Shown: positions 4,258-21,462 of the stretch, in pieces
How the letters are laid out: every line of letters begins with the position of its first letter
Position numbering within the stretch: the stretch's first letter is position 1
IMG/VR virus record: IMGVR_UViG_3300032286_001030
Coordinates: 1 to 50,837 of that record
DNA: 50,837 nt
Strand: one strand, 5' to 3'
Source of the DNA: a virus
Position numbers and translations under genes: made by a program
Notes under the pieces: model-generated
Told to the model about the DNA's origin: nothing
Databases searched by the model: none
The model's input: the letters and a program-made list of their open reading frames with translations, nothing else

Positions 4258-5289
4258 ATGACAAAAACAATATTAGTTACTGGAGGTGCCGGATTCATTG
4301 GTCATCACATGATTAGGCGATTATTAAAACATCCCGAATATAATATTATATCATTAGACAGATTAGATTTTTCAGGTAATTTGAATAGGTTAGCCGAATT
4401 AAAAATTGAATTTGGGTCAGCTATTCATAGACTTAAAGTAATACATCATGATTTAAAAGCAGAAATCAATGACCAATTAGCTAAACAATTGGGCAATATT
4501 GATATTATTGTACATATGGCAGCAGGTAGTCACGTTACTAGATCAATTGAAAACCCACTTGCGTTTGTATTAGATAATGTAGTAGGTACTTGTAATCTAT
4601 TAGACTACGCAAGAAAGCGTTTACCTAACTTAGAAAAGTTTATCAACTTTGGTACAGATGAAGTTTTTGGATCAGCACCTGATGGAGTAGATTTTAAAGA
4701 ATACGATAGGTATAATAGCCGTAGTCCTTATAGTGCATCAAAAGCCGGAGCAGAAGAATTATGCGTAGCATATGAAAACACATATGGAATGCCCATATAC
4801 TGCACTCATACTATGAATGTATTCGGAGAAAGACAATTGCCGGAAAAATTCATTGGAATTGCAATGCGTAAGATATTAGCAGGTGAACCAGTAACTATTC
4901 ACTGTGATGAAGAAACTGGCACAAAATCAGGGCTAAGACATTGGGTTCATGCCGCTGATGTAGCAGATGCAACAATGTTTATCATTGATTTACCGCATAA
5001 GCAATTTAATTTGGCAAATGATGCAGGTGTCGCAACATGTCCTAAGTTCAATATCGTGGGGCAACATGAAGTTAGTAACTTAGCCGTAGCACAAAAAATA
5101 GCAGATATTTTAGGTAAAGAATTAAAATATACCATGGTCAGTTATGATTTGCAACGTCCGGGGCATGACTTTAGATACAGCCTAAGCGGTGAATATATGA
5201 AAGAATTAGGGTGGGAACCCAAATATGATTTTGACTTACGGTTAAAACAAATGGTTGAGTGGACATTGAAAAACGATAGGTGGCTATAA
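4258..5289 (+). CDS. NDP-sugar 4,6-dehydratase/epimerase (extended SDR)
   Basis: A 343-residue extended short-chain dehydrogenase. It has the NAD-binding GGAGFIG (residues 9-15), a HMAAGSHV segment, the catalytic TDE triad (Thr133, Asp134, Glu135) and YSASK (Tyr158, Lys162). The TDE motif is typical of dTDP-glucose, CDP-glucose and GDP-mannose 4,6-dehydratases rather than simple 4-epimerases, so the likely product is an NDP-4-keto-6-deoxy sugar. The next gene encodes a sugar C-methyltransferase, whose known relatives act on such keto sugars; this supports the reading. It is first of three plus-strand genes in an otherwise minus-strand region and has its own late-type promoter at 4226-4237. 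The exact nucleotide sugar is not resolved. Confidence 0.88.
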   Translation: MTKTILVTGGAGFIGHHMIRRLLKHPEYNIISLDRLDFSGNLNRLAELKIEFGSAIHRLKVIHHDLKAEINDQLAKQLGNIDIIVHMAAGSHVTRSIENPLAFVLDNVVGTCNLLDYARKRLPNLEKFINFGTDEVFGSAPDGVDFKEYDRYNSRSPYSASKAGAEELCVAYENTYGMPIYCTHTMNVFGERQLPEKFIGIAMRKILAGEPVTIHCDEETGTKSGLRHWVHAADVADATMFIIDLPHKQFNLANDAGVATCPKFNIVGQHEVSNLAVAQKIADILGKELKYTMVSYDLQRPGHDFRYSLSGEYMKELGWEPKYDFDLRLKQMVEWTLKNDRWL

Positions 5290-6495
5290 TTGGTAACCTA
5301 CAATCATGAATGTTTAGCATGCGGTAATAAAAATTTGTTAATGGCACTTGATTTAGGTATACAACCATTAGCCAATAGGTATCTTAATAGCGAGAATGAC
5401 TCTGAATATAAATACCCCTTAGCAGTAAATTTATGCAGAAATTGCCATCATCTTCAATTAACTCACACAGTTGACCCAACAACAATTTATAAAAATTACT
5501 TATATGTAACCGGCACTACTAATACTATGAAAGACTACAGTGAATGGTTTGCTGATTACATTGTAAACAAGATGAATAAGGAAACTTCTAATATACTAGA
5601 CATTGGATGTAATGATGGAACTCAGCTAGATTCTTTCAAGGCCAAAGGGTTAAACACGTTTGGTGTAGATCCAGCAGAAAATATCTACGCTATTAGTTCG
5701 GCTAAACACGATGTTATATGCGACTTTTTTGGCCCCAATATTGTAGACAAAATTAAATATGAGTTTGACGCTATTACTGCACAAAATGTTTTCGCACATA
5801 ATCCCAATCCATTAGAATTTTTACAAACTTGTAAAAAGTTGATGAGTGAACATACCTTATTATTCATTCAGACTAGTCAAGCTGATATGGTTCTTAATAA
5901 TGAATTTGATACTATATACCATGAACATGTCAACTTCTTTAATGTTAATAGTATGAATGAATTAGCAAAAAGAGCAGGGCTATATTTGATTGATAGTATT
6001 AAAACACCTGTTCACGGTAACAGTTACCTATTTATTTTAAGTACTAAAGACAGTTTAGCTACTACTATCAATGACAAAATTAAAACAGAAGATATTCTAT
6101 TAAACATTGAAACTTATACTAAATGGGAAAAGAATGTAAAAAGTAATATGTCTGAATTAAAACGTACTATAGCATCTTATAAGTTTAATGGATACAAATT
6201 AATTGGATATGGCGCGGCGGCAAAAGGTAATACATTATTAAATTTTGTAGATATAAAATTAGACTTGATAATAGATGATAATCCTTTGAAGCACAATTTG
6301 TATACTCCGGGAACAAAAATTGTTATAAAAGGCCCTGAGTCAATTAAAGAGTTTAGTCCAAATGACAAACTTGTGTTTATTCCCTTAGCTTGGAATTTTT
6401 TTACAGAGATTAGTAAAAGAATAAAAATGAAACGGGATATAAAACAAGATGTTTTCTTAAAGTATTTTCCTAAGGTAGAAATAATTAATGTATAA
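5290..6495 (+). CDS. NDP-hexose C-methyltransferase (SAM-dependent)
   Basis: The 401 residues show the three-part plan of sugar C-methyltransferases such as TylC3, EvaC or NovU. An N-terminal zinc site has Cys8, Cys11, Cys49 and Cys52 around LDLGIQPLANRYL (Methyltransf_13 type). A SAM-binding fold has LDIGCNDG (from about residue 103). A C-terminal domain has GYGAAAKGNTLLNF and DDNPLKHNLYTPGT (Methyltransf_14 type). Relatives add a methyl carbon next to the keto group of an NDP-deoxysugar, and the upstream dehydratase would supply that substrate. The frame begins with TTG immediately after the upstream stop (TAATTG). No closer ATG would keep the first zinc cysteine pair, so a TTG start is most likely. 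The end overlaps the next gene by 8 bases. Confidence 0.85.
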   Translation: MVTYNHECLACGNKNLLMALDLGIQPLANRYLNSENDSEYKYPLAVNLCRNCHHLQLTHTVDPTTIYKNYLYVTGTTNTMKDYSEWFADYIVNKMNKETSNILDIGCNDGTQLDSFKAKGLNTFGVDPAENIYAISSAKHDVICDFFGPNIVDKIKYEFDAITAQNVFAHNPNPLEFLQTCKKLMSEHTLLFIQTSQADMVLNNEFDTIYHEHVNFFNVNSMNELAKRAGLYLIDSIKTPVHGNSYLFILSTKDSLATTINDKIKTEDILLNIETYTKWEKNVKSNMSELKRTIASYKFNGYKLIGYGAAAKGNTLLNFVDIKLDLIIDDNPLKHNLYTPGTKIVIKGPESIKEFSPNDKLVFIPLAWNFFTEISKRIKMKRDIKQDVFLKYFPKVEIINV

Positions 6496-6838
6496 ATTTC
6501 CAGTTATTGAATTAGTAGATAGATATTGCATTGCTAAATTAAAATTTGCTAAATTAGGAAACAATAAAGAAGAAGTAGACTTCTACACTGAGCAGTTATC
6601 CGATATTAATTTTGAATTAATAAAAGAAGAACTTGATCAATTATATCAAGTACATGCTGCCGTTTGGGATCTAGAAGATGATTTTAAAAAGTACCGCATT
6701 GAACAATTGTACGATTTGGCTGAGATAGGACGCAGAGCATTGCGTATTAGAGATGTAATGCATAAACGGTATGACTTAAAAAACACAATGGCTGATAAAC
6801 TAAATGACCCAGTTAAAGAAATGAAAAAATACGGTTAA
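6488..6838 (+). CDS. Small DUF6165-like protein
   Basis: A 116-residue, probably all-helical charged protein. It has the pattern ELVDRYCIAKLKFAKL near the start, then AAVWDLEDDFKKY. This resembles the small DUF6165-type proteins found in bacterial surface-polysaccharide loci, where a helical 'LWDIEDDIR'-type segment is characteristic; I am recalling the family and could not test it. No catalytic motif is visible. It overlaps the C-methyltransferase gene by 8 bases, so it is likely part of the same short operon. Its TAA overlaps the TAA of the convergent gene at 6835. The function is unknown; an accessory role in glycan assembly is inference. Confidence 0.6.
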   Translation: MYKFPVIELVDRYCIAKLKFAKLGNNKEEVDFYTEQLSDINFELIKEELDQLYQVHAAVWDLEDDFKKYRIEQLYDLAEIGRRALRIRDVMHKRYDLKNTMADKLNDPVKEMKKYG

Positions 6839-8061
6839 TAATTTAATTTAGTAGTATATCTAGTTTTAGAAAGTAATATATTATAATTATAATTACAAAT
6901 CTCCCGAACATGGTTTAAAAAGTCAGTTAATTGATCAGGAGATAATTCGCACAACCTTTTTATCTCTTTCACTATCATTAACATTCTTGCCGATTCATTT
7001 AATTCACTGTCATAACTTTCGTCTATCCATGGGCTAAACGTTTTATAGCCTACTTTTTTAAGTAAAGGAAGTGTACCTGCGTTGGCTACTAAAATAAAAG
7101 GATGTTTAACTGCTATAGTTTTAAATGTTTTTTCACTTAGTAATCTGCCCGGGGGAGTTAGATCACCAGGCTTTATTCCTTTAGCAAAACAGTTTGTTTC
7201 GGTTACTACGCTAAAGTAAGAATCCGTATAATATTTAAAAATAGAAGGTAACAGATAAGCATTATCTCGTTTTTGTAATACATTACTATCGATATCAATC
7301 GAAAGTTCACCTATATTTAAAATTTTTTCTTCGCTAGCCATTAATAACTGAATTAATTCATCGTTGTCATTATGACAGCGCTTCAATTCAATTAAAATAT
7401 CATTCCAAGTTGGATATTCAGAATACATTCCTGCACTAACAAAACCCTTATCTAATAGATTCATTGAAGTTAATAAAGCTATTAGACTACCGCGGTGTAA
7501 TCTACCATGGGGCATCATATGGCGATTAAAACTTAAAAACTTTTTATCATAATGCTTATTTTGCAAAGTTAACGGTACATTATAGTTTATTAGCTGATTT
7601 TTTACAGTGTATTCAAATGATCTTGTCCATTCTACATTTATTTGACCTAAATTATATTTTTTTCTCACAACATCTACTTCTTCTATTATATCAGCAGACT
7701 CGGATAATAATATTATTTGTTCTACAGGAATCTTAGCTCTAACTATTAAATCTCTATAAATCCCGGTAACAACACTGTGGTAAGTTTCATGAGTATTTGA
7801 CACTAATAAAAATATTTCTTTATTCCATAATTTTCTTAATATTTCTTCAGGAACAATTGTTTCTATTGGATAACACTCAAATGAGTTTCCATTATATACT
7901 TCAATGAACCAATAATCTTTATTTTCATCAAAATAATACATATGAAATGTAATATTACCATCTATCATATTCTTGATAGTAGGCATATGCCAATAAGGTG
8001 AGCCAATTTGCTCAAAACTAGTATGTATTTTATAATAAGAATCTTTATTCAGGATGGCCAT
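6835..8061 (-). CDS. Putative GT-B (fucosyltransferase/GT10-like) glycosyltransferase, copy 2
   Basis: A 408-residue paralogue of the gene at 2976-4184. Shared landmarks are MAI.N.D at the start, a YWF..EVYNG segment, a SNTHE/SNSHE motif, SFNRHMMPHGRLHR, LLDKGFVSAG, VVTETN, RLLSEKTFK (about residue 307), HPFILV and DESYDSEL. The LSEKTFK...HPFI region resembles the nucleotide-sugar site of GT10-type fucosyltransferases. The N-terminal ~200 residues are less familiar and may bind the acceptor. The start overlaps the upstream radical SAM gene by 17 bases, which ties it to that operon. Its stop overlaps the stop of the convergent gene ending at 6838. Donor and acceptor are unknown. Confidence 0.6.
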   Translation of the reverse strand: MAILNKDSYYKIHTSFEQIGSPYWHMPTIKNMIDGNITFHMYYFDENKDYWFIEVYNGNSFECYPIETIVPEEILRKLWNKEIFLLVSNTHETYHSVVTGIYRDLIVRAKIPVEQIILLSESADIIEEVDVVRKKYNLGQINVEWTRSFEYTVKNQLINYNVPLTLQNKHYDKKFLSFNRHMMPHGRLHRGSLIALLTSMNLLDKGFVSAGMYSEYPTWNDILIELKRCHNDNDELIQLLMASEEKILNIGELSIDIDSNVLQKRDNAYLLPSIFKYYTDSYFSVVTETNCFAKGIKPGDLTPPGRLLSEKTFKTIAVKHPFILVANAGTLPLLKKVGYKTFSPWIDESYDSELNESARMLMIVKEIKRLCELSPDQLTDFLNHVREICNYNYNILLSKTRYTTKLNY

Positions 8062-9025
8062 TGTTAATAAATTTAGGAATTATAATATCAGTGCCACAAT
8101 GACAATGCTCTTTTTTGCATGTGATTTGTTTGGGGCCAACCCTAGAAATATCTTTTAAGATATGGCCTGCATTGCCGCCCATACCACAACTTGCTAGACT
8201 AACCTCCCCCACTGGATTGATAAAAATAGCATCACCTACATTGCAGTTCCACCCACTAAAGTAATTATTACCTGCAACAATCACTTCATTACTGTTACAT
8301 ACTTCAGTGTGATTATCATCATATCTATTATAGCTAACATTGTAATGGGATCGTTTATCAGGCTTTGGCTTAGTTTGTTGATGTTCTGATGTACAGTCAT
8401 TGATGAACTGAGTTTTTGCTGGATCTTTATAGGTCCAAGGACCTGCGTTTACACTCATTTCATCAAACAGCGGAGTCCATTCTAAAAAGTAGTTGGGCAT
8501 TACCGTTTTTAAGTGTTTACCAAACTCTACTACTTCCCAAAATCTTTCTTCATGTAGTAACATCTTAGTAGCCAAATAATTTACTTTGTCACATAAGAAT
8601 ATACTATTTTCTTCATATCGTTTTTTATCAGCAAACTCTACATGGAAGCTAGCAACCACATCATCAAACAGATAGTGATTCTTTTCCCACCATTTTAAAG
8701 GTCGACTTAAATTAGTATTGACTGCTAGAGTAGCGTGTGGTAATTCTTTGAACAACCATTCGCACAATGGAATAAAATTACGCCATGCAGTTGGTTCTCC
8801 GCCACTAAAGAAAAACTTAAAATTTTTATAACCAATTTGTTTATAACGGTTAATGATAATATCTAGATTATTAATATATAAATCTAGATTACCATCATTG
8901 ATATCAGTTCCTCCCCAATTGCCCGGGTTACAATAACTGCATTTAAAGTTACAGAAATTATTAACTTGCCAAGTAACAGCTAAGTAAGGCTCTGGAGCCT
9001 CTATAGCAATTAACTTTCGGCCCAT
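8045..9025 (-). CDS. Radical SAM enzyme with C-terminal cysteine cluster (SPASM-like)
   Basis: A 326-residue protein with the radical SAM cluster motif CNFKCSYC at Cys25, Cys29 and Cys32, and the SAM-contacting SGGEP after a KFFF strand. Unlike the five upstream radical SAM genes it has no N-terminal cysteine region. Instead it has six cysteines in its last third (243, 261, 280, 303, 308, 310), including GEVSLASC and CKKEHCHC, consistent with one or two auxiliary iron-sulfur clusters. SPASM-type enzymes modify peptides or sugars (for example by dehydrogenation or epimerisation); which applies here is unknown. It overlaps the upstream gene by 16 bases and the downstream gene by 17. Confidence 0.85.
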   Translation of the reverse strand: MGRKLIAIEAPEPYLAVTWQVNNFCNFKCSYCNPGNWGGTDINDGNLDLYINNLDIIINRYKQIGYKNFKFFFSGGEPTAWRNFIPLCEWLFKELPHATLAVNTNLSRPLKWWEKNHYLFDDVVASFHVEFADKKRYEENSIFLCDKVNYLATKMLLHEERFWEVVEFGKHLKTVMPNYFLEWTPLFDEMSVNAGPWTYKDPAKTQFINDCTSEHQQTKPKPDKRSHYNVSYNRYDDNHTEVCNSNEVIVAGNNYFSGWNCNVGDAIFINPVGEVSLASCGMGGNAGHILKDISRVGPKQITCKKEHCHCGTDIIIPKFINNGHPE

Positions 9026-10287
9026 TCATAAATCTCTTTAAATTCTGGAATAATATCTTCAATCTTTTCATTTCTAAATTTATCTAATTCATCATTGAAT
9101 TTTTTAAACTCAAGTATGCCGCCCTTATTCTCGTCACCTACATTTAGATTCTGAATTATCATTTTAAAACCATTATGTAATTCACCATTGACGAACTCAT
9201 ACCTATCTGCATACACTCTATACAATTCCGTTAACCGTCGTTTAACGGACACCGGTAATATCATTATGTTTGCGTACCACGGACTCGTTGCTAGATTAAA
9301 TCTCGGTGAAGATGTTTGATCGTCGATCAAATTTTCTTTAACTAAGTAGTCAAAAAAATCAGGAAAATCAAATATATTCCAAATACTAATAGTTGGTGTA
9401 ATTTGAAACTGAGCATGAGGGAGCTGCTTTTGTAATGTTTTAATATTATTGACAATTTTTTCCCAATCAGAGCCTTTGCGTATTACCTCTGCTACATCAC
9501 CATGAGCATCTAAACTAGCCCAAATTTTTAATTGCGGAAATTTCTTCCAATATCCAAGTAAGTCTTTATCTTTGAACTTCAAAGAACTAAAGTTAGTAGT
9601 ATAAGTTAACTCTACTTGAGCAGTTAAATCATTTTCAATCCAATAATCTAAACATTCATAATGCTCGGGAGTAATAATTATTTCACCGCCTGCAAAATAA
9701 ACTTCTAAGACGTCTTTTAAATATGGTTTTAATTTATTCATAAAACTCATTTCTTCTGCGGTATTAATTACGACCTTAGTAGTTTTAAAATGTTTTTCAT
9801 ATTCAGTAATACCCTTTTTGTCAGAATATTCTTGTGCCCAAAGACTGCTACATCCTGGGCCACAGCTACGACATTTCATATTGCACATATTACTGAAACG
9901 CAAATCCATATACTTCATTTCAAAGTCGGAGATAGTGCCATCATTATCAGTATTAGTTGATATCATGTTAACATATTCAAGGCCCCTGCGCTTATTATGA
10001 CTTTTACGCATAGTCCATGTACCCAATAATTCTAAATCATAACATCTTCTACATGCTTCAACTGGTTCATCGACCAGCATTGCTTCTCGTATTTTTTTAT
10101 ATTCTTCACTATTCATCATCTGAATAATAGATTCGCCATTATTAATATTTGCAACTGGCATATTACTATCTGCAACACAACAAGGCATTACTTTACCATC
10201 TGGCCATGAATGAAAATGCACCCAAGGCAGTACACAAAAATGTTTACCAAACTTAACTAAATTTTCTATCACCAGTGGATCTTGCAT
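9010..10287 (-). CDS. Twitch-domain radical SAM protein, copy 5 (GGEI variant)
   Basis: A 425-residue member of the N-terminal-twitch radical SAM group. FCVLPWVHF with Cys18, the PCC pair (36-37) and CRRCY (Cys79, Cys82) form a probable auxiliary iron-sulfur site. CNMKCRSC (Cys135, 139, 142) binds the radical SAM cluster. The usual GGEP SAM motif reads AGGEI here, so the Pro is lost. It is also the copy that most clearly departs from the three neighbours at 10290-14005. It starts 3 bases from the preceding stop and overlaps the next radical SAM gene. Substrate and reaction are unknown. Confidence 0.85.
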   Translation of the reverse strand: MQDPLVIENLVKFGKHFCVLPWVHFHSWPDGKVMPCCVADSNMPVANINNGESIIQMMNSEEYKKIREAMLVDEPVEACRRCYDLELLGTWTMRKSHNKRRGLEYVNMISTNTDNDGTISDFEMKYMDLRFSNMCNMKCRSCGPGCSSLWAQEYSDKKGITEYEKHFKTTKVVINTAEEMSFMNKLKPYLKDVLEVYFAGGEIIITPEHYECLDYWIENDLTAQVELTYTTNFSSLKFKDKDLLGYWKKFPQLKIWASLDAHGDVAEVIRKGSDWEKIVNNIKTLQKQLPHAQFQITPTISIWNIFDFPDFFDYLVKENLIDDQTSSPRFNLATSPWYANIMILPVSVKRRLTELYRVYADRYEFVNGELHNGFKMIIQNLNVGDENKGGILEFKKFNDELDKFRNEKIEDIIPEFKEIYEWAES

Positions 10288-10289
10288 TT

Positions 10290-11522
10290 TTACTCCGTCA
10301 AATACTGTAATCTATTTAATTCAGGAAATGTTTTCCAAAAATTTTCTCCTCGTATTTTGTCTCCCGAAATAGTATGTAACATGAATGTTTCTTTATTTAC
10401 TGCCCAAGTGTCTGTATCTTTTGCAAAATTGACGGCATCAGTCACTAAACGGGATAATGATGTTCCATCGTTACGGTAATGATCTGCCCAAGCCATAGCT
10501 TTATTTGCCGCATCGACCTTTAACTCTTTTGGTAAACTCTTACCACTATAATGACTAGGATGTACTGCTAAGTATAAACTATTATACCAATCATTAGTAC
10601 GGACCAAGCCTTTATTCTTTAGATATGAATAAAATTCTCCAATAGTCAAATAATTAAACAATGAAAAAACAGTGTTTAACTGAAATGAAATGTAATCCAA
10701 TTCTCTAAATTTTAATAAATTGCTTTCAACTAGACCCCAATCAGTGCCGTGTCGTAACCATTCCGCTCTTTCACCATAATGATCTATGCTACAACTTAAT
10801 TCAATTCTTTTAAAGTGCTTCCACATATCTAATAAATCGTAGTTTTTGAATTTAATATTACTGGCGTTTGTATTGTATCTCAGTACTATATCCGTACGAC
10901 CTTTACGAATCATTTCCTCTAGCATAATATAATGCTCTTCCGTCAATGTGGGTTCACCGCCTGCAAAATACGCCAAATCAATGTGTTCTACTTGGTCTAA
11001 TACTTCACGCAATAAGTTACCTTTCTCATCAGCATGAATAACTATAGGATGCTTTGGATCATGATTGGCTCGCATTTCTGCTCCCCATTGACTACTAAAT
11101 TCCGACCCACATGTTCTACATTTAAAGTTACATATGTTACTAAACCTAATATCAAAATAATGCATTTTAAATTCAGGGACCGTACCATCTTCAAGAGTAG
11201 TAGGTAATATTTCATCAAAATGTTTACCAAACTGCTCTTTACTATAGTTTCTAAAACTATGCGGGCCAGCTTCTTCATGTTTATAACAAAAATTACAGAT
11301 TTTGTTTGGTTTATCAGCCAACATATCTAACCGCAATTGCTTCATTTGATCATTATTAAACGCATCTTTAAGACTAGTTTCTTTAGTATTACCATATGGA
11401 ACGGTATAATCATTGCTACAACAGGGATATATATCGCCCTTAGGAGTGACATTTAAATGCATCCATGGGAACATGCAAAATACTTTGCTTTCATATAGTA
11501 AATAATTTTTGTCCATAATCAT
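10290..11522 (-). CDS. Twitch-domain radical SAM protein, copy 4
   Basis: 410 residues. The N-terminal cysteine region has FCMFPWMHL (Cys16), YPCC (34-35) and CNFCY (76, 79). The radical SAM motif CNFKCRTC has Cys131, 135 and 138. AYFAGGEPTLTEEHY is the SAM-binding strand. It aligns closely with the next two upstream copies, including LLYESK at the start and a GERAEW/YIRxGTDW segment in the barrel. The start ATG overlaps the preceding TGA (ATGA, 11519-11522). The near-identical plan of three neighbours suggests tandem duplication followed by divergence. The reaction is not predictable. Confidence 0.87.
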   Translation of the reverse strand: MIMDKNYLLYESKVFCMFPWMHLNVTPKGDIYPCCSNDYTVPYGNTKETSLKDAFNNDQMKQLRLDMLADKPNKICNFCYKHEEAGPHSFRNYSKEQFGKHFDEILPTTLEDGTVPEFKMHYFDIRFSNICNFKCRTCGSEFSSQWGAEMRANHDPKHPIVIHADEKGNLLREVLDQVEHIDLAYFAGGEPTLTEEHYIMLEEMIRKGRTDIVLRYNTNASNIKFKNYDLLDMWKHFKRIELSCSIDHYGERAEWLRHGTDWGLVESNLLKFRELDYISFQLNTVFSLFNYLTIGEFYSYLKNKGLVRTNDWYNSLYLAVHPSHYSGKSLPKELKVDAANKAMAWADHYRNDGTSLSRLVTDAVNFAKDTDTWAVNKETFMLHTISGDKIRGENFWKTFPELNRLQYLTE

Positions 11523-12745
11523 ATAGAACCGTCTATCATTGATATTAATTCAGGAAAGGTTTTTTCAAACGAATCATTTCTAATATCATCACGCAATTTA
11601 GTTTCCTTTAAAAAATTCTCTTTCTGTATATTCCAATCATCGCTAGAATGTGTAAATTTTATAGCTGGTTCAATTAAATTATACGGGGATATCAAATTCA
11701 TTTTTTCAATCAATTTAATATTATTTGGTAAACACTGTTCTTTCAAAATTTTAGGCAGCACTGTAGCCGAATAATACTCAGGAGTCGGGGTGCATATTAA
11801 TGTATTACTTGATTTATTATTAATAATTCCAAAATTAATAAGATATTCATATAGTAGCGGTAATGTAGTATAATTAAATATACTAAGAACTGTATTAACA
11901 GACAATGTTACATTGGCTGTATTATTAAATTTTTGTAAATTATATTCAATTTTACCCCAATCTGTGCCGGTTCTAATATACTCTGCGCGTTCACCTATAT
12001 GGTCTATACTAGCCGATACATCAATAGCATGAAAATATTTCCATAGGTCAAATATATTTTTATCTTTATATGATAAAACACTACAATTAGTGTTGTATCT
12101 TATTTTGACATCAGTTTTATTTTTCCTAATTAATTCTTCTAAAATAATATAGTGTTCTTCAGTGATAAGTGGCTCGCCACCCGCAAAATAAACAAATTCT
12201 ACATCATCAATGTGTGACAAAAACTCAGATAATATTTGAGTAGTCTTAGATAAATTATAAATAGGTATTTGGTGTTCTGAACTTAATCTATTATTATCTT
12301 CTTGGGCCCACAATGAACTATAGTTGGGTCCGCACGTGCGACATTTGAAATTACAAATATTGTTAAATCTGATATCATAATATTTCATTTTAAAGTTTTC
12401 TAGTGTACCGTCATCTTTTGTGTTGAGTAATACCTCATTGATAGACGGTCCAAAAATATTATTTCCAAAAGATCTCCAACTATCTGTATATTTTTCAGTA
12501 TTATAACACTGTCTACAAGTTGTATTAGTAGTTTCTGAAAGCATATCTCTGCGTAATTTTTTAAAATTATTACTATTAATAATATTTTCAAATGTTGAAT
12601 TGGGGGCAAGTACCGTCATGGGAGTTTCAGATACGCCAACACAGCACGGGAATACTTCCCCTTTTGGGGTAGTCATAAAATGAACCCATGGGAACATACA
12701 GAATGTTTTGCTTTCTTTTAATAAATAATCGGTATCATATATCAT
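11519..12745 (-). CDS. Twitch-domain radical SAM protein, copy 3
   Basis: 408 residues with the same plan as its neighbours. LLKESKTFCMFPWVHF (Cys16), FPCC (34-35) and CRQCY (77, 80) form the auxiliary region. CNFKCRTC (131, 135, 138) binds the 4Fe-4S cluster that cleaves SAM. VYFAGGEPLITEEHY and a GERAEYIRTGTDW segment follow. It begins directly after the stop of the gene at 12746 and overlaps the next start by 4 bases. In the middle of the tandem run it is likely expressed at the same level as the others. Whether each copy has its own substrate is unknown. Confidence 0.87.
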   Translation of the reverse strand: MIYDTDYLLKESKTFCMFPWVHFMTTPKGEVFPCCVGVSETPMTVLAPNSTFENIINSNNFKKLRRDMLSETTNTTCRQCYNTEKYTDSWRSFGNNIFGPSINEVLLNTKDDGTLENFKMKYYDIRFNNICNFKCRTCGPNYSSLWAQEDNNRLSSEHQIPIYNLSKTTQILSEFLSHIDDVEFVYFAGGEPLITEEHYIILEELIRKNKTDVKIRYNTNCSVLSYKDKNIFDLWKYFHAIDVSASIDHIGERAEYIRTGTDWGKIEYNLQKFNNTANVTLSVNTVLSIFNYTTLPLLYEYLINFGIINNKSSNTLICTPTPEYYSATVLPKILKEQCLPNNIKLIEKMNLISPYNLIEPAIKFTHSSDDWNIQKENFLKETKLRDDIRNDSFEKTFPELISMIDGSI

Positions 12746-14005
12746 TTAATTTTCCATTAAGTCCGCAAGTTCTGGGAAAGTTTTTACAAAACTTTCCCCT
12801 CTAATTTTATCTCGTTGTTCAGTAGTAGACTGAAATTTTTGTTTATGTTTTTCCCACGTATAGTTTTCATGAGGTGTCATAGTCCAATTAATAATACCTT
12901 CTAATAGACTTAATGCATTTGGCCTTATTATAAATCCTATAGATTTCATAATATCTATTAGTTTTAATATTTTTATTTTACCCTCTTCTTTATGGTGTTG
13001 TGGTAATATATTTGAAGTAAGAAACTCCGGCGAAGCCATATTATATATTGAATATGTATTGTCACTCGGTGAGTACAATCTCTTATCAAACAAATATTGA
13101 TAAAATTCTAAAATTGTAGTATAATTATATAAACTTAAAACTGTATTCATTTGCAGTTGAATGTATGAAGATTTTTTAGCTAATAAAAAATTTTCTTCTA
13201 TTATAGCCCAATCTGTCCCGTGTCTTATATATTCAGCCCGTTCGCCGTAATGATCTACGCTGGCATAAATTTGCACACTTTTGCTAAAGTGTTTCCAAAG
13301 ACCTAATAAATCTTTGTTTTTAAATTTTAAATTACTTAAGTTTGTGTTGTAACTTAACGCAATGTCTGTTCGTCCTTGCCTAATCATTTCTTCTAATATA
13401 ATATAATGTTCTTCTGTAATAAGGGGTTCTCCGCCGGCAAAATAAGCTAATTCAATATTGGGAATTTGATCGAGTACTTCTTCTAAAAATTCTTTTTTAT
13501 TGTTTTTTAAAATCTGATGTTGGTAAATATTATTTTTTATATTTTCTTGTTCCCATTGACTGCTGAAGTCAGGACCACATGTTCTACATTTAAAATTACA
13601 AATATTATTAAATCTAATATCAAAATATCTCATTTTAAACTCAGACAATGAGCCATCTTCATTTGTTGCAGCCATAACATTGTCAAAATGTTTATCATAT
13701 AATTTATTTGAGTTAGAACGAAAGCTATTTGATAATATCTCGTCATCATAATGACATCTAGAACACATAGGATTTTTAACATCTGATAGCATGTCAAGTC
13801 TAAGCTGCTTCATCTGTGTAGAATTGACAATTTCCATCATACTTTCTCTAGTAGTATCACCCAATGGGCGATGAAATCCAAACTCATCAATATTAGTTTT
13901 TGCAATGCAGCAGGGCATTGCATTACCGCTTGGAGTAGTAGTGAAATGTATCCAAGGCAGAATACAAAATGATTTGCTTTCTTTTAGTAAATGTTCTTTA
14001 TTCAT
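12746..14005 (-). CDS. Twitch-domain radical SAM protein, copy 2
   Basis: 419 residues. FCILPWIHF (Cys14), MPCC (32-33) and CSRCH (81, 84) form the auxiliary cluster region, and CNFKCRTC (136, 140, 143) the radical SAM site. AYFAGGEPLITEEHY and GERAEYIRHGTDW are shared with copies 3 and 4. The start overlaps the preceding stop by 4 bases. The last residues (RGESFVKTFPEL) match the ends of copies 3 and 4 (NDSFEKTFPEL and RGENFWKTFPEL), so homology runs the full length. Confidence 0.87.
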   Translation of the reverse strand: MNKEHLLKESKSFCILPWIHFTTTPSGNAMPCCIAKTNIDEFGFHRPLGDTTRESMMEIVNSTQMKQLRLDMLSDVKNPMCSRCHYDDEILSNSFRSNSNKLYDKHFDNVMAATNEDGSLSEFKMRYFDIRFNNICNFKCRTCGPDFSSQWEQENIKNNIYQHQILKNNKKEFLEEVLDQIPNIELAYFAGGEPLITEEHYIILEEMIRQGRTDIALSYNTNLSNLKFKNKDLLGLWKHFSKSVQIYASVDHYGERAEYIRHGTDWAIIEENFLLAKKSSYIQLQMNTVLSLYNYTTILEFYQYLFDKRLYSPSDNTYSIYNMASPEFLTSNILPQHHKEEGKIKILKLIDIMKSIGFIIRPNALSLLEGIINWTMTPHENYTWEKHKQKFQSTTEQRDKIRGESFVKTFPELADLMEN

Positions 14006-15408
14006 AGTGGGTTAAGTAAATTTATTTCTTGGCACTTGCGGTAGAATCCTAAATATTCTGGGAATATAGCTAGCATATCAGTTTCTCTACGCTCATCCAA
14101 TTCGTTAAACCAGTTGTAAAAATCTCTGCGACCTTGCAACAATTTTTCGTCTGAGTATACAGTTTCAGCCATGTAATCTACTACACGCTTAAATTTTTCA
14201 TATTCAATTGAGCTAAACGCATCTGCTTTAGCGTCATCTGTGTGTTCTTTCATATATGATAATGCATCATGCATATATGGCATAAATTCTTCTTTGGGCA
14301 AAATATTCATGTCATACTGAATAGGGTCTCTAAGGTAAGGAGTATCAAATCTTACACGGTGTTGTGGGTTAATTAAATCGTCATACCAACCATAAATTTT
14401 ACGCCATTCAATTAATTTTTCAAGGAAGCTCTTAAATGTAGTGACACTAAAGATATTAAACGTAATCATAAAAGTAATAGGGCTATCAGTGTTTTTAAGA
14501 TAGGTATGAAAGTTTTGTTCCCATAACTCTAAGTCCAACCCAGTACGAATATACTCGGCCCGTTTACCCCATGTATCCATACTAGTAAACAACTTAAAAC
14601 TTTTAATTTTACCAGTACTGGTAAGATTTTTAATTTTTTCAGATAACCGTTCTATAAGTAATGGTTTAGTTCCCAAGTTACTATTAATGTTTAACTCTAA
14701 CCATGGCATGGGATCTGACTCAATAGAATCTAATAATTGCCATGTAGATTTATGTAAGGTTGGCTCCCCTCCCGTAATACGCATGATAGTTAAAGTTTTT
14801 CGAAGTTCGGGCCACCATTTCCAAAATGCATCAACATATGGATTATCATCTTCGCGCTGATATAATTTCATCCAATCTATGTCACATCTATGATTTTGTA
14901 CAGTAGTAACAGGACCATATTTTTCAATTTCTTTATAAAAACTAGTACTATACTTTGGATGACAGTAGCCACATTTAAAATTACATTCATTGCCAAAGTT
15001 AATCTCAATGTACTCAGGGTTTATGTTTTGATTCCAAAGTCCTTTAGTAGTTTGCTCGTACCGTTCTTCTGTAAAGATACTAGCATTGCGAATATGCCTG
15101 TCGCTAATATAGTCAGGACCCATTGCTTCAATATTCCAACAGTACTGACAACCACTGGGCTTACCACCGTCTAACATTAACTTCCGTTCTTCTTTCTTTT
15201 CACTAGTGTTATGAAGTGCTGAAGGGTTATCAATGACTTCGCTTAATGGGATTCGATGTGGTTTAGGGTGATAACAACTATGTGTTTCACCCGATTGTAG
15301 ATACATTGTGACGTGATGCCATTTAGCTAGACAAAAAGTAGGTCCTACTTCATTTTCTATTTTAATTTTAATGTCTTTGATTCTTTTTTGTTCGGTACTC
15401 ATCACCAT
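14002..15408 (-). CDS. Twitch-domain radical SAM protein, copy 1 (most diverged)
   Basis: 468 residues from the ATG 15408, or 466 from the ATG 15402. The latter sits in a TGATG overlap with the upstream stop and has AAGGA about 5 bases ahead, so it is likelier. The N-terminal auxiliary region is FCLAKWHHV (Cys26), SCYHP (Cys45, a single Cys where the others have PCC) and CQYCW (87, 90). CNFKCGYCHP (142, 146, 149) is the radical SAM motif and RITGGEPTLH binds SAM. GKRAEYIRTGLD keeps the barrel motif of the other copies. It is longer, with an insertion after the Cys motif, and probably has a different substrate. It is the first radical SAM gene in the operon. Confidence 0.87.
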   Translation of the reverse strand: MVMSTEQKRIKDIKIKIENEVGPTFCLAKWHHVTMYLQSGETHSCYHPKPHRIPLSEVIDNPSALHNTSEKKEERKLMLDGGKPSGCQYCWNIEAMGPDYISDRHIRNASIFTEERYEQTTKGLWNQNINPEYIEINFGNECNFKCGYCHPKYSTSFYKEIEKYGPVTTVQNHRCDIDWMKLYQREDDNPYVDAFWKWWPELRKTLTIMRITGGEPTLHKSTWQLLDSIESDPMPWLELNINSNLGTKPLLIERLSEKIKNLTSTGKIKSFKLFTSMDTWGKRAEYIRTGLDLELWEQNFHTYLKNTDSPITFMITFNIFSVTTFKSFLEKLIEWRKIYGWYDDLINPQHRVRFDTPYLRDPIQYDMNILPKEEFMPYMHDALSYMKEHTDDAKADAFSSIEYEKFKRVVDYMAETVYSDEKLLQGRRDFYNWFNELDERRETDMLAIFPEYLGFYRKCQEINLLNPL

Positions 15409-16352
15409 CCTTCGATTCTACGAATCACATCCATTTCAGTAATCAAAGGACCTAAATTATGTTTGTCTACATTATAATGCCGTTTAAAAAACTTGCTTTG
15501 CTCTTTTTCTAGAGTACACATAGGCAATCCAAGTTTATCGTGGAGAGCAGCGCCTAACAATGTTGCTTCACGCTCTGGGTCTTTATCTTTATGTTCTTCC
15601 CATAGTATAGAGTAGTTATCAAACCACTGGACATTGACATGATCCCAAGTAGTTAGCATAGTCATATATGTACCAAGTCTTGCACCATATATAGCCCACA
15701 ATCCATTATCAACATCTGCCCCTACATTATGCCATATAGTAAGATTGTTTAAATTTCTACTTGCTACTGTTTCTTTGAACTCATCTATGCTAGGCACTGC
15801 TCCTCGATTTAGGCACATCTTAACGCCTTCACGAAAACCTGCACGCCATGCTTGAAAAGGAGTATAGTTAGGATATGTAGTACTGTAGCAATCATACATA
15901 GCCCAATACAAATTATCAGCACTATCTAAACAAAAATCAGCAACTCGGGATAGATCACCATCTTTTTGGTGTTCATGAGTTTGCATTTCTTTTACATAAG
16001 TTTTTGTCCAGCTGCTCATACCACCATTGCCGTATCTTAGCCCATTAATGGCATTGATAGCTTTCCAACGAAATTGTGCTTTTTTATATTTAGGATCTTT
16101 GTCAGTAAAGTCTAATTGAAGATTAAAAAATAGTTCATCGGGCATATTATCGCCGTCAATAAGAATAAATCTTTCGGTATCGCTAGCTTCACCTGCTGCT
16201 TTATGTGCAGCATCGCTGCCCTTTACGCTATCAACTCTTTTGGCCCATGGAATCATATTTTTAATTTTGAGCCAAAATTCTTCCTTTTGAGGCTCGTCAT
16301 AGCTAAGATATATACAATCTAAGTCAGCTACATCAACTATATCATAACTCAT
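15402..16352 (-). CDS. Putative glycosyltransferase (GT-A-like, DGD motif)
   Basis: 316 residues. DCIYLSYDEP at the start and FILIDGDNMP (Asp66, Asp68) look like the first strand and the metal-binding DxD of a GT-A glycosyltransferase. A YGNGGMSSWTK segment and TPFQAWRAGFREG follow; I cannot place these in a named family. The gene overlaps its neighbours on both sides, lying between a small unknown gene and the first radical SAM gene. A glycosyltransferase role fits this company. No membrane segment is visible. The donor and acceptor cannot be named, and the assignment rests mainly on the DxD context. Confidence 0.55.
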   Translation of the reverse strand: MSYDIVDVADLDCIYLSYDEPQKEEFWLKIKNMIPWAKRVDSVKGSDAAHKAAGEASDTERFILIDGDNMPDELFFNLQLDFTDKDPKYKKAQFRWKAINAINGLRYGNGGMSSWTKTYVKEMQTHEHQKDGDLSRVADFCLDSADNLYWAMYDCYSTTYPNYTPFQAWRAGFREGVKMCLNRGAVPSIDEFKETVASRNLNNLTIWHNVGADVDNGLWAIYGARLGTYMTMLTTWDHVNVQWFDNYSILWEEHKDKDPEREATLLGAALHDKLGLPMCTLEKEQSKFFKRHYNVDKHNLGPLITEMDVIRRIEGW

Positions 16353-16671
16353 AAATTTTTAACTTCCATTTTACTGTGTTTATAGATAGATCCGAGATTA
16401 TACTAATATCGTCCATAGCACATGCTATACCATCGTCTGACGGCATCAGTTTATATACTACTGCATTAGGAGTTACTGTTGAAATTTTTCCATCTATTAT
16501 TCTTACATCAGGTCTTGCTGTAGCGTAAGTTAGTGCATCAATTATAATATATTGACCTTCTAATTTTTCACAGGTATAACAAATGACCTGACCCCGATCG
16601 TCATAATATAAACGGAATTCCGGTGGAATGATTTTCGGTGCTTCCCAAAGAATAATTACATCATCATTCAT
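16342..16671 (-). CDS. Small protein of unknown function between glycosyltransferases
   Basis: 109 residues: an acidic, beta-rich protein with PEFRLYYDDRGQVICYTCEKLEG and a YIIIDALTYATARPDVRIIDGKI segment. It resembles small conserved proteins I recall next to glycosyltransferase and fibre genes in T4-like aquatic phages, but no function is known to me. A single CYTC pair is present. It overlaps both flanking genes by a few bases, so it is part of the same transcript. Confidence 0.6.
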   Translation of the reverse strand: MNDDVIILWEAPKIIPPEFRLYYDDRGQVICYTCEKLEGQYIIIDALTYATARPDVRIIDGKISTVTPNAVVYKLMPSDDGIACAMDDISIISDLSINTVKWKLKIYEL

Positions 16672-17465
16672 AAATAACCTCTTATGATTTTATCACAAAA
16701 GTTCTTAATATGATAATGAAAAGGATAAATCTGCGGTACAGTCTGTATTCTCAGTTGATCAGGTAAACATTCATATATAAAAGTATCTGTCCAATTTTCA
16801 GTTGGATTACCATTTATAAATTGTTTCATATGAATCATACTCATTTCAGTGAATGTTGGTATTATAGTTTTTTCTTTACCTATAATATGCGCCGCTATAC
16901 TATAGGCCCAATCGGTACTAACCGGGTCCTGTGAATTATACTTCAATATATTTTTATAATCGTCCCAATTTTCAAAAATATCTCTAACAATTTCAAAAAA
17001 AGTTTTGGCAGTAATAGATTTTTTAAAATAAGTTATAGCATTGTAAACGTCAGGCAATTTGTTTTCATCAATGAATCTACGGTAACCTCTTACTTTTGAA
17101 ATTTCTTGTTTTAAATTTCTTATAGTAGTACACAATACTATATCCTGTTGACCGCATACATCGAACCAATGCATGATATTCCTAGGAATAATCATATCTG
17201 CTTCTAACTTAATAGTTTCATCATACGGGCTGGCTTCATATACTTGCCAATCATTGATAAGTTTCCATTTACCATTTATATCTAAATCGCCATATGGTAA
17301 GGGAATTATCTGATCAAAATCAGAATAATTCACGGGGTCATTGGTTATAACAGAAACCTTTGCATATGGCATTACTTTATGAATGCTCATAGCCAATGTT
17401 TCGGCACACTTAACATAATTTACATTAGTAGTGTTTTGTGCCATTATAACAAATCCTTGACTCAT
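16668..17465 (-). CDS. Putative GT-A glycosyltransferase, paralogue B
   Basis: 265 residues, related to the next upstream gene. It opens with a GFVIMAQNT strand and has SVITNDP, then SPYDETIKLEADMIIP, where Glu88-Ala-Asp90 stands at the DxD position. The paralogue has DAD, so the first metal ligand may be changed here. A late DWAYSIAAHII segment matches NDYALTLALRI in the paralogue. The fold resembles GT8-like transferases. It overlaps both neighbours by 4 bases. Activity depends on whether Glu can replace Asp. Confidence 0.6.
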   Translation of the reverse strand: MSQGFVIMAQNTTNVNYVKCAETLAMSIHKVMPYAKVSVITNDPVNYSDFDQIIPLPYGDLDINGKWKLINDWQVYEASPYDETIKLEADMIIPRNIMHWFDVCGQQDIVLCTTIRNLKQEISKVRGYRRFIDENKLPDVYNAITYFKKSITAKTFFEIVRDIFENWDDYKNILKYNSQDPVSTDWAYSIAAHIIGKEKTIIPTFTEMSMIHMKQFINGNPTENWTDTFIYECLPDQLRIQTVPQIYPFHYHIKNFCDKIIRGYL

Positions 17466-18262
17466 TTAATCAACCCCAGCATGTTTTCTTTGTTCATAAT
17501 ATGGAAGTCAGTATCTTTAATAGTAATAAATTCTTTACGAATTTTTCCTCTTTTCCAATTATCAAACATGACGGTATATTCTACATTAAATTCATAATCA
17601 GAATCAGGGTATACGGTAGTATTCTTACCAATATGTACTAAATTCCATGGGATAATATCATCTTTTATATCCATGTGACCGTTCACAATCCGTAAAGCCA
17701 AAGTTAATGCATAATCGTTTCTAAAAGTGTTTGCTATGAATCCATGAATATTTGAATAATGATCAAAATTATTTTGAACCATTTCTAAACAATTAAAAAT
17801 TTGTTTAGCTCTAGGTGTTTTTTTAAAAGTTATTACGGTAGCCCATAATGTTTTAAAGCTATAACCACTTAGTACCTCTTGTGTCGCTTCGGGATTCATT
17901 AAAAAACTAGTAGTATCGTGACAGCAAAAATCGGTTGACAGGTTAAAGGTATCTAACAATTTATTAGAGTTAATAACATAGTCTGCATCTAATAATATGG
18001 TTTCATCATATGGACTAAAGGAATATGCTTTATATCGACCCTTGTTTATCCATACTCCCCAATCACGTTTATTATTTCTGTCAGGCTCAGTGACTATGAC
18101 CTTATCAAAAGTATAGATAGGATTTTCAGGCAGCGATTGGGTATCCGTGACCAGTGTCACTGGTAAATTTAAAAAATGATTAGCGCGTTTAGCTGTAGCT
18201 ACAGCCATATCATAGTAATTAAATTTTGGGCTGTTAAACGCAAATAAGAGTACTCCTCTCAT
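17462..18262 (-). CDS. Putative GT-A glycosyltransferase, paralogue A
   Basis: 266 residues. MRGVLLFAFNSPKFNYYDMA begins the nucleotide-binding half. VTLVTD ends a strand and SPYDETILLDADYV carries a complete DxD (Asp92, Asp94). HIGKNT and a NDYALTLALRI helix follow. SPYDETI.L.AD is shared with the adjacent paralogue, which indicates a gene duplication. The start overlaps the stop of the 101-residue gene (ATGA). It is the first glycosyltransferase after the tail-fibre genes, so it could decorate fibres; this is inference from position. Confidence 0.65.
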   Translation of the reverse strand: MRGVLLFAFNSPKFNYYDMAVATAKRANHFLNLPVTLVTDTQSLPENPIYTFDKVIVTEPDRNNKRDWGVWINKGRYKAYSFSPYDETILLDADYVINSNKLLDTFNLSTDFCCHDTTSFLMNPEATQEVLSGYSFKTLWATVITFKKTPRAKQIFNCLEMVQNNFDHYSNIHGFIANTFRNDYALTLALRIVNGHMDIKDDIIPWNLVHIGKNTTVYPDSDYEFNVEYTVMFDNWKRGKIRKEFITIKDTDFHIMNKENMLGLIK

Positions 18263-18564
18263 CGTTTATTCTCTAGTTCAACCCATTCTTGATGCCAGTT
18301 AGTCATACTATTAGTATATGCTGTATATAATTTATCTTTTAATTCCTGTCTATTTACCTCTACTGGATTATTAAATGTATCAATTAAAATAACTTTTTCG
18401 TCAGTTATTGCATTCAAAAAATTAATAGTTTCTAAATTGGCGCGCCAAAGTCCTCCTTGATCAGCAACAATGAATTTGCTGTCATATTTGTCTTTTAAAT
18501 AAGCTTTGGCTGCATTATGACTAAATCTGGCTTTAGCATCTGCAATTAGTGTTTTAGTATCCAT
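18259..18564 (-). CDS. Conserved small phage protein, function unknown
   Basis: 101 residues, starting MDTKTLIADAKARFSHNAAKAYLKDKY, then FIVADQGGLWRA and a C-terminal helix with NWHQEWVELENKR. It looks like a two-part alpha/beta protein with no transmembrane segment. I recall similar small proteins beside tail genes of T4-like aquatic phages but know no function; a structural or chaperone role is possible. AGGAG lies about 7 bases before the ATG. A late-promoter-like TCTAAATA sits 17 bases upstream. It may head the operon that continues into the glycosyltransferases. Confidence 0.65.
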   Translation of the reverse strand: MDTKTLIADAKARFSHNAAKAYLKDKYDSKFIVADQGGLWRANLETINFLNAITDEKVILIDTFNNPVEVNRQELKDKLYTAYTNSMTNWHQEWVELENKR

Positions 18565-18580
18565 AATACTCTCCTACGAG

Positions 18581-18588
18581 TATTTAGA
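18581..18588 (-). promoter_or_regulatory. Late-promoter-like TCTAAATA
   Basis: TCTAAATA on the minus strand, two mismatches from the T4 late promoter TATAAATA, lies upstream of an AGGAG site and the ATG at 18564. The position suits transcription of the small gene and the glycosyltransferase/radical SAM run. It is a short AT-rich match, so it is weak evidence. Confidence 0.35.
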
Positions 18589-18612
18589 TAGATTCTAGGG
18601 TGCGGTATAAAT

Positions 18613-19572
18613 TTATAATACTGATGCCGTGCCGGTGATGGTCGGCGTTCCCCAACTAGCAGTCGGTAAATATACATTTTCAGGAGGAACAATTGTTACT
18701 GTGGTAGTAGAACCAGAACCGGCAGATAATCCATCCGGGACTTCATCCCAAACCGTGTAAAGGGTAATAATATTGCCCACATCGCCATTTGAACCTTGAG
18801 TTCCATTGGTTTTAGCAATTATACTTATATAGGTCCCTAGATAACCTGCTGGACCAGTACTGGCGGTTTGAGTAAACAATGTGGTGTTTGCTGTACCTAA
18901 TGCATAGTAACCTGAATTTGTAGAAATAGTTGGTGCATTACCTCCACCGCCTACTTTAGTAACTCCATTATAAGAAGTACCTGCAATCGTAACAGACCCT
19001 GTTATAGGGGAACTTAATGCAATAGTACCTATATTACTTACTAAATTATTTAATAATAAATTAATTCCAGCTGTAGTATTAGCATGAGTACAAGTAATTT
19101 TCAACTGTCCTCCTGCATTAAAAAAGTAACGGGCAGCGTCCCCGGAACTAAAAGTAATTACATGAGTAAATGCAACACCAGTTGTCCAAGTGCTGCCGTA
19201 TGTCGCAGCATTAGAACTAGTGCTACCTTGTGTAGCAGCATTCAATCTGCTAGTATAAATTGTTGTTAAATTTGTAGGGATAGCAGCAAGATATGTAATA
19301 GTGCCACCTGAAACGGGTGCGGTGACCGAAGTAATGCTAGTACCTTGATGAGAAGCAGAATTTGCAGTATTGTTTACCAATGATGTCCAACTACCAGTAG
19401 CTGTTGCAGTATCACCTACGGCCACATTAGCCACTGCTGTTTGACCGTATCCTGCATTTGTGCCACCTGTTGCCCAAACTGCATTAATTGTACCTGATGT
19501 AGTAGTAGGATTACCTCCAGCTAGAGTATTAAAGTCTGATGCTTGAATCGATCCATATTGTGCGTAAGTCAT
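18613..19572 (-). CDS. Tail-fibre-like structural protein
   Basis: 319 residues rich in Gly, Thr, Ser, Ala and Asn, typical of beta-structured fibre proteins. The N-terminal MTYAQYGSIQASDFNTLAG and WATGGTNAGYGQTAVANV look like an attachment segment seen in phage fibre-type proteins. FSSGDAARYFFNAGGQLKITCTH suggests a beta-sandwich region. The C-terminus (residues ~270-319) is VWDEVPDGLSAGSG followed by a Thr/Val-rich strand pair. No enzyme motif is visible. It follows another fibre-like gene by ten bases. It likely belongs to the host-contact apparatus; the exact place on the virion is unknown. Confidence 0.65.
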   Translation of the reverse strand: MTYAQYGSIQASDFNTLAGGNPTTTSGTINAVWATGGTNAGYGQTAVANVAVGDTATATGSWTSLVNNTANSASHQGTSITSVTAPVSGGTITYLAAIPTNLTTIYTSRLNAATQGSTSSNAATYGSTWTTGVAFTHVITFSSGDAARYFFNAGGQLKITCTHANTTAGINLLLNNLVSNIGTIALSSPITGSVTIAGTSYNGVTKVGGGGNAPTISTNSGYYALGTANTTLFTQTASTGPAGYLGTYISIIAKTNGTQGSNGDVGNIITLYTVWDEVPDGLSAGSGSTTTVTIVPPENVYLPTASWGTPTITGTASVL

Positions 19573-20841: not shown

Positions 20842-21462
20842 TTAAATAGTTACCAAGTTAGTAAGACTTTGAATTCTAACAGTATAGTCTATTTGAATTT
20901 GTCTATTTAAACTTTTTTGTACTGGGTGAAAAATGACATGACTTAATAATCTTGTAATTACCTGTCCGTTATTATCTGTCCCATAATTACCTAATAATCC
21001 CAATTCATCAAATACATATTCTCCATTCAATTGTGTACTATTATCAAATGCCGCTTGTCCCGCGGGCTCACCGTAATCTAATAAACATTGAACTAATATA
21101 TCTGTATAAAGTTTCCCAGTAGTATGAGTAACTGTCATTTTATTTCTTGTAGGATCCAAGTTATAAACACTAGTGTCATCTACTATTTTAGTATAGGTTT
21201 GGTTGTATAAGGCTGCATTTATTCCAACAGTATTTGGAGGTAGGTAAGTAATTACTCCAGTTTCGCTTACACTAGCTCCGCCATTTCCAAATGCCATTTC
21301 ATAAATTTCTCCATATCCGCGGCCACTTAAAGAGTTCGCAATAGATTCTGACATGTTTTCATAATTAATAGCGTTTTTCTTATCCACGAATATATCCCCA
21401 TTATTTGGATCGTAGATTTTCAAAAAACCTTCTATATTATAGGATAATTTAATTACCGACAT
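20842..21462 (-). CDS. Putative tail/baseplate structural protein
   Basis: 206 residues. IEGFLKIYDPNNGDIFVDKKNAINYENMSESIANSL at the N-terminus is a module common in phage tail proteins. GRGYGEIYEMAFGNGGASV is followed by a segment ending with VIFHPVQKSLNRQIQIDYTVRIQ. No enzyme motif is present. The start codon overlaps the stop of the 55-residue gene (TAATG), and that small protein carries a shorter form of the same N-terminal motif. Position after the giant wedge-region gene and before the fibres suggests a connector between baseplate and fibres. This is inference. Confidence 0.62.
   Translation of the reverse strand: MSVIKLSYNIEGFLKIYDPNNGDIFVDKKNAINYENMSESIANSLSGRGYGEIYEMAFGNGGASVSETGVITYLPPNTVGINAALYNQTYTKIVDDTSVYNLDPTRNKMTVTHTTGKLYTDILVQCLLDYGEPAGQAAFDNSTQLNGEYVFDELGLLGNYGTDNNGQVITRLLSHVIFHPVQKSLNRQIQIDYTVRIQSLTNLVTI

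Follow-up and report, generated by a model that had tools for sequence, protein, structure and literature searches.

Six radical SAM genes in a row behind virion genes of a putative jumbo T4-like phage: a possible late module for radical tailoring of a virion glycan

The window, meaning the whole stretch of DNA analysed here, is a 50,837-base virus fragment (IMG/VR record IMGVR_UViG_3300032286_001030), and the element in question is a row of genes for radical S-adenosylmethionine (SAM) enzymes on its minus strand. Six radical SAM open reading frames (ORFs), all intact, lie uninterrupted and head to tail at 8045-15408, as described in the initial annotation of the window:

14002-15408, minus strand: gene A, 468 aa, N-terminal twitch variant, NF033640 312 bits; core gene, opens the array in all relatives
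12746-14005, minus strand: gene B, 419 aa, N-terminal twitch, NF033640 359 bits; fast evolving, missing from some arrays
11519-12745, minus strand: gene B2, 408 aa, N-terminal twitch, NF033640 339 bits; lineage-specific extra copy
10290-11522, minus strand: gene D, 410 aa, N-terminal twitch, NF033640 362 bits; core gene
9010-10287, minus strand: gene E, 425 aa, N-terminal twitch, NF033640 364 bits; core gene
8045-9025, minus strand: gene F, 326 aa, no N-terminal twitch, C-terminal cysteines (SPASM/twitch-like), PF04055 28 bits; core gene

The proposed coupling of these genes by overlaps holds for some junctions, which overlap by 4-16 bases; the others abut or leave 2-base gaps. The six proteins belong to the radical SAM superfamily, and the CxxxCxxC and GGE motifs reported for them are found in all six and in all relatives counted. 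According to NF033640 (N_Twi_rSAM, full-length match, cut-off 170 bits), A, B, B2, D, and E pass with 312-364 bits, and F fails with 26 bits. Only 3 of the 6 proteins score above the threshold of the general Pfam model Radical_SAM (29.5 bits), and 4 pass SPASM (PF13186). In agreement with the initial annotation, five proteins carry a predicted twitch auxiliary-cluster domain, with the pattern FCxxPWxH...PCC...CxxC exact in four of them and the variant FCLAKWHH...SCY...CQYC in A. The twitch cysteines (C16, C34/C35, C76, and C79) have a BtrN-like spacing and are invariant among relatives. As for F, the C-terminal cluster ascribed to it is present as well: the radical SAM core comes first and is followed by C261, C280, C303, C308, and C310 near the C-terminus, all five being invariant in 65 relatives. 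Relatives of the core enzymes retain the cluster cysteines in 97-100% of cases (for A, across 72 loci).

In the family profile, the N-terminal domain aligns with the BtrN twitch domain (residues 183-258; E 6e-5). A profile search of the PDB with four window proteins gave no match; only the wider profile returned BtrN and viperin. The AlphaFold2 model of D (predicted local distance difference test, pLDDT, 93) is supported by Foldseek as a radical SAM partial TIM barrel. Its closest solved folds in the PDB are mostly SPASM peptide enzymes (the sactipeptide maturase 5why, anSME, and SuiB) and viperins, and the sugar-acting DesII and BlsE are also among its neighbours.

Relatives were collected from IMG/VR by a scan with the twitch proteins (78 loci) and a scan with F (at least 174 matching viral stretches, 80 of them kept as a second sample). 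Gene order was counted on about 150 viral loci fetched in all, and relatives of the cassette, i.e., the array with its conserved partners, sit on contigs of up to 364 kb. Orthologues occur in the same order in most of these loci. Clustering gives a fixed sequence of families, namely the virion families C9, C5, and C6, then C8, C4, C4, C7, and C1, then the array, and finally C3. In the window these are, together with a promoter-like element:

20842-21462, minus strand: C9, conserved in the virion module; phrog_11259, homologue Cassandra_0440
19583-20809, minus strand: C5, virion structural, phrog_14394; late motif upstream
18613-19572, minus strand: C6, virion fibre-like, just upstream of the cassette; 52 loci; candidate acceptor
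18581-18588, minus strand: TCTAAATA, T4-type late-promoter-like element about 22 nt before C8
18259-18564, minus strand: C8, 101 aa, opens the cassette; 47 loci
17462-18262, minus strand: C4b, paralogue of C4a; LLDADY motif
16668-17465, minus strand: C4a, candidate transferase by motif only; invariant PYxxT...D
16342-16671, minus strand: C7, small conserved protein of 109 aa; 48 loci
15402-16352, minus strand: C1, 316 aa, divergent GT-A-like; IDGDN motif; adjoins the start of the array
6835-8061, minus strand: C3, conserved protein of 408 aa after the array; 64 loci

In the second sample, 75 arrays could be judged. Counted with the F type, they comprise 39 arrays of five radical SAM genes, 20 of four, 10 of six, and 6 shorter ones, part of which fall short only because other ORFs break the row. 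In a tree, A, B, D, and E each form a single clade across phages, and therefore the array was inherited as a set; E (66 loci) is sister to Bdellovibrionota proteins. B is not present in the loci L071, L073, and L083, and the B2 group comprises only 5 loci. The minimal unit is A, D, E, and F, so that B and especially B2 are optional extras. In three loci (L054, L207, and L222) about eight small ORFs are inserted between A and the remaining array, marking an insertion hot spot. The ratio of nonsynonymous to synonymous substitutions (dN/dS) between close relatives is mostly about 0.02-0.15 (0.03/0.88 for A against locus L008), and judging by these values the radical SAM genes are under strong purifying selection. 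Decay of the array is ruled out by dN/dS together with the intact motifs; the sole fragmented A gene, in L059, may be a sequencing error. The initial annotation had held a linked pathway to be unlikely if related phages carried the array scattered without glycan genes, or if close relatives carried decayed genes. Scattering is thus mostly contradicted by the shared order, decay is contradicted by the substitution ratios and the intact motifs, a single broken locus aside, and as for glycan genes, C1 stands beside nearly all arrays and one lineage keeps the core without a recognised transferase. This lineage (L230 and L236) is considered below.

C1 is the most conserved neighbour, present in 70 loci, and its IDGDN motif is conserved. 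It lies directly before 59 of the 75 arrays and mostly a few genes off in the others, and it is clearly missing only from L230 and L236. The window protein has no Pfam match. For its model (pLDDT 80) the top Foldseek matches are nearly all GT-A or nucleotidyltransferase folds, and they are weak (best E 1.7e-3, TM 0.36); they include PcManGT and the PBCV-1 capsid glycosyltransferase (E about 2e-3). A bacterial homologue, L146, exceeds the Pfam cut-off for Glycos_transf_2. Taken as a whole, C1 seems to be a divergent GT-A-like protein. Of the glycosyltransferase genes that had been placed beside the array, 15402-16352 is accordingly GT-A-like by predicted fold and by the Pfam matches of its homologues, and 16668-18262 is unrecognised: no transferase match was found for the C4 region in Pfam or PHROGs, a profile comparison of C4 with C1 gave no significant match, and C4a matches weakly only phrog_1903, a family of unknown function. 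The C4a/C4b pair is found in 53 loci. C3 follows 72 of 79 arrays. Its gene (6835-8061) had been called fucosyltransferase-like, a name that is not upheld by Pfam or PHROGs, where neither the window protein nor dozens of relatives match GT10 or any other glycosyltransferase family. More broadly, 71 relatives of C3, C4, C13, C14, and C16 gave no transferase in Pfam or PHROGs; C3 and C4 keep transferase-like motifs. A second phage group (L043, L055, L057, L058, L064, and L068) has the C1 domain fused to a tandem-repeat protein. There the late motif is missing, and a different palindromic element (like ATACTAAGATAAATTAGTAT) precedes the fusion, which in L057 comes after a 1885-aa subtilase-like adhesin.

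From C8 to C3 the genes form a single co-directional run directly after the virion gene C6, which has a conserved sequence rich in Gly, Ser, Thr, and Asn with YFFNxGG. TAAATA-type elements are the T4-type late consensus, and a TATAAATA-like element upstream of C8 matches it. Every one of the 40 non-redundant loci has TAAATA, usually in the form ATCTAAATA, within 80 bases upstream of C8, where shuffled sequences would give 2.4; it also occurs upstream of the virion gene C5 in 31 of 33 loci. Before genes inside the cassette it is found in 0 of 74 cases for C4, 2 of 52 for C1, and 0 of 38 for F. The late motif precedes the window gene for gp6 as well. The plain pattern TNTAAATA shows no enrichment over the whole window, so the weight rests on its conserved position before particular genes. 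Scans for sigma-70 promoters and terminators did no better than shuffles. On these features the cassette looks like a late operon.

Upstream of it lies a giant ORF (21630-40835, minus strand, 6401 aa) in the baseplate/tail region, the C-termini of its relatives forming family C11. Baseplate genes follow:

40844-44215: gp6-like baseplate gene
44268-44717: gp25-like baseplate gene
44725-48468: gp5-like baseplate gene

These genes are nearest to those of jumbo T4-related phages such as RaK2, 121Q, and Atu_ph07 (about 32% identity), and by such similarity the window comes from a jumbo relative of T4. In the cultured Pseudomonas phage Cassandra, the giant protein, C9, C5, and C6 all have homologues, arranged as here, and no cassette follows them, which argues that the cassette is an accessory module inserted behind fibre genes. 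Cassandra_0442 matches two parts of the 6401-aa protein with 28-30% identity.

A counterpart is found in Bdellovibrionota, where C1-like, twitch radical SAM, and F-like genes stand side by side on chromosomes. Of 241 genomes from this phylum, 73 have an NF033640 match above the cut-off, and a first look suggested a strong expansion, with up to 50 candidates in one genome. C1 is present in 15 of the 241, in at least 9 of them with a twitch radical SAM gene on the same contig within about 5 kb. In the tree, the bacterial proteins nearest to phage A and E come mostly from Bdellovibrionota. Genes for NDP-hexose 2,3-dehydratase, DegT, GT2, deoxysugar enzymes, and carbamoyltransferase are found near bacterial twitch members. 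The Bdellovibrionales contig L246 (the contig of L146) has at 7060-19512 housekeeping-type genes (pheT-, trmD-, and rnhB-like, identified by eye) followed by C6-C8-C4-C4-(C7-like)-C1 and two radical SAM genes with F, in the phage order. C6 as a common bacterial gene is ruled out by its presence in 1 of the 241 genomes; since none of the others has it, the L246 stretch may have come from a phage as an island or may reflect an assembly join where the contig ends.

Sugar-related genes are found near the cassette, two of them on the plus strand of the window:

4258-5289, plus strand: nucleotide-sugar epimerase/dehydratase, phrog_540; C12 family in 37 loci
5290-6495, plus strand: sugar C-methyltransferase-like protein, PF08421/PF13489/PF08484

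Downstream of the array, a B12-binding radical SAM gene occurs in 64 of 79 loci (e.g., L013:17853-19775 and relatives) and 52 loci have an epimerase there. Radical SAM genes number 7-11 in total in each of five long genomes (244-364 kb), and all five carry a further radical SAM ORF of 740-777 aa near the cassette. A carbamoyltransferase gene accompanies some arrays; in L052 and L075 (family C23) it comes with an additional separate radical SAM gene.

The explanation we favour, tentatively, is that the cassette is expressed late and uses radical chemistry to tailor a glycan carried by a fibre or baseplate protein of the virion. That the target is part of the virion, whether glycan or peptide is modified, seems probable, because the position of the cassette and its promoter point there. 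A glycan is suggested because C1, the epimerase, the methyltransferase, the B12-binding radical SAM gene, and the deoxysugar genes near bacterial members point to one. C1, and probably C4 and C3 as well, would attach sugars to a fibre-like protein of the virion, either C6 or the one of 6401 aa. A, D, E, and F, here with B and B2, would then abstract hydrogens via the SAM radical, and the auxiliary iron-sulphur cluster would serve to oxidise, epimerise, or deoxygenate sugar carbons; every paralogue would have a position or residue of its own. Further changes might be added by the nearby B12-dependent radical SAM enzyme, epimerase, and C-methyltransferase, and the particle would end up bearing an unusual glycan, with a role in receptor binding or protection. 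The twitch match to BtrN fits such chemistry, as BtrN oxidises an aminocyclitol. So does the fact that C1 travels with N-twitch radical SAM genes in Bdellovibrionota too. Neither an RRE nor a PqqD match was obtained for the window radical SAM proteins, and no small precursor peptide was seen. Several observations weigh against this explanation. The late motif is a consensus match rather than a mapped promoter, C3 and C4 are not recognised as transferases, and peptide-acting maturases stand beside DesII and BlsE among the fold neighbours of D. A search for NTP_transferase in the five long phage genomes found no nucleotidyltransferase for the making of nucleoside diphosphate (NDP) sugars, and a complete NDP-sugar pathway in the phage is rejected on that ground. 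Finally, L230 and L236 keep the four-enzyme core without a recognised transferase.

The last point makes direct peptide modification the main rival, because this lineage still keeps its four enzymes among virion genes, a T4 gp9/10-like gene and a tail-fibre-like gene lying less than 10 kb away. The radical SAM enzymes would then modify the fibre polypeptide itself by epimerisation, cross-links, or side-chain oxidation, with the transferases serving a separate or later step, and the fibre may contain an embedded substrate of the type of ribosomally synthesised and post-translationally modified peptides. The closest solved folds also favour this rival. We regard it as rather unlikely, as nearly all other arrays adjoin C1, the twitch domain aligns with that of BtrN, and neither an RRE domain nor a small precursor was found; C7 and C8 have no repeated or Cys-rich core and do not look like precursors. 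The array of L230 (L230:6178-10981, four radical SAM genes without C1) represents a simpler version of the system; a PTPS gene and Fe-S_biosyn (PF01521, an iron-sulphur carrier) lie nearby.

Alternatively, the module could rewrite a host surface glycan (lipopolysaccharide or capsule) for superinfection exclusion or receptor switching, which we consider unlikely. Such a role is the published reading for the glycosyltransferase-rich host-recognition islands of pelagimyophages, which also gain radical SAM cassettes (PMC7029224), and the radical SAM island of Vibrio phages K566 and K567 likewise has a glycosyltransferase and a lipid A gene (PMC12028318). The bacterial twitch genes among GT2, deoxysugar, and carbamoyltransferase genes agree with it. 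However, a late-type promoter and transcription with virion genes imply a change at the end of infection, which would be of little use against superinfection, and C6 accompanies the cassette even in the sole bacterial contig that has C6. A metabolic role, with a cofactor, nucleotide, or amino-acid derivative as the product and a benefit to the infected cell, was proposed for the radical SAM genes of Campylobacter phages CP220 and CPt10 (PMC2853527). The PTPS and iron-sulphur carrier genes near the L230 array are also compatible with it. It is nevertheless very unlikely here, given that position and order are fixed with virion genes across many phages and that the repeated paralogues with a GT-A-like partner fit, to our knowledge, no known cofactor pathway. 

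The stepwise radical system proposed in the initial annotation stands as a linked, functional multi-enzyme module tied to virion and usually glycan-type genes; with a minimal unit of four enzymes, six genes need not mean six chemical steps. A wider reading, which we think less likely than not, is an undescribed system found both in giant phages and in Bdellovibrionota, a phylum rich in predators. In it, a GT-A-like enzyme would act with a fixed set of three twitch radical SAM enzymes and one SPASM-like radical SAM enzyme, and together they would make a modification, edited by radical chemistry, on an adhesive fibre; in the phage the genes would form a late operon and the virion itself would be the target.

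Regarding known systems, the five twitch proteins are full-length members of NF033640, a family defined by sequence only, and F lies outside it. In BtrN (2-deoxy-scyllo-inosamine dehydrogenase) the twitch domain is C-terminal, whereas here it is N-terminal, and the likeness is one of domain. A search of 50,697 phage records returned nothing for C1, F, C3, C4a, or C8; for the twitch proteins the only matches were to K566/K567 and to a single marine fragment (about 24-27%). The cultured Vibrio phages K566 and K567 have three radical SAM genes nearly in a row and a fourth nearby. They differ in identity (about 24%) and location, their genes being annotated within a replaced anti-defence island (PMC12028318), and one K566 radical SAM protein used as query found no relatives in viral contigs. 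In Vibrio phage KVP40 three radical SAM genes lie at 135055-145766 (L278), one of them adjoining a Glycos_transf_1 (PF00534) gene.

Many radical SAM genes in one T4-related phage are likewise known from CP220 and CPt10, with 11 and 12 such genes, five of them in one module (PMC2853527), and from a marine T4-like genome with 12 (PMC5332604). The module of CP220 and CPt10 differs in being an exchangeable metabolic one with glycine amidinotransferases, for which no GT-A partner or late-promoter link is reported (PMC2853527); its proteins have no sequence match and only weak structural matches to the array. Aeromonas phage 332-Vera has eight radical SAM genes within a structural cluster with five tail-fibre genes, called highly unusual by its authors (PMC12390700). 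It resembles the cassette in having these genes among structural ones; unlike it, the phage is phiKZ-like (Chimallinviridae), not T4-like, and no function was proposed. No 332-Vera match turned up in the phage searches, and no direct comparison was made. The pelagimyophage host-recognition cluster also combines radical SAM cassettes, tail fibres, and glycosyltransferases in the structural region (PMC7029224), yet it is a hypervariable island of smaller phages with no single conserved cassette, and it is read as a change of host lipopolysaccharide. The claim of an undescribed system must therefore be narrowed: phages with multiple radical SAM genes are already published, and what was not found described in the open-access literature is this particular cassette together with its late promoter and bacterial counterpart. 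Radical SAM clusters among the structural genes of phages have come up repeatedly since 2010 without a tested function, and the fixed set (A, D, E, and F), the constant partner C1, the late promoter, and the candidate acceptor C6 make the question of function testable. In mycobacteriophages, phage-encoded transferases decorate virion proteins, as proposed here, and we know of no radical SAM enzymes in that glycosylation. If the proposal is true, phages would have in radical chemistry on their particles a new means of diversifying adhesion, and the gene set shared with Bdellovibrionota would connect phage fibres to surface structures of bacteria.

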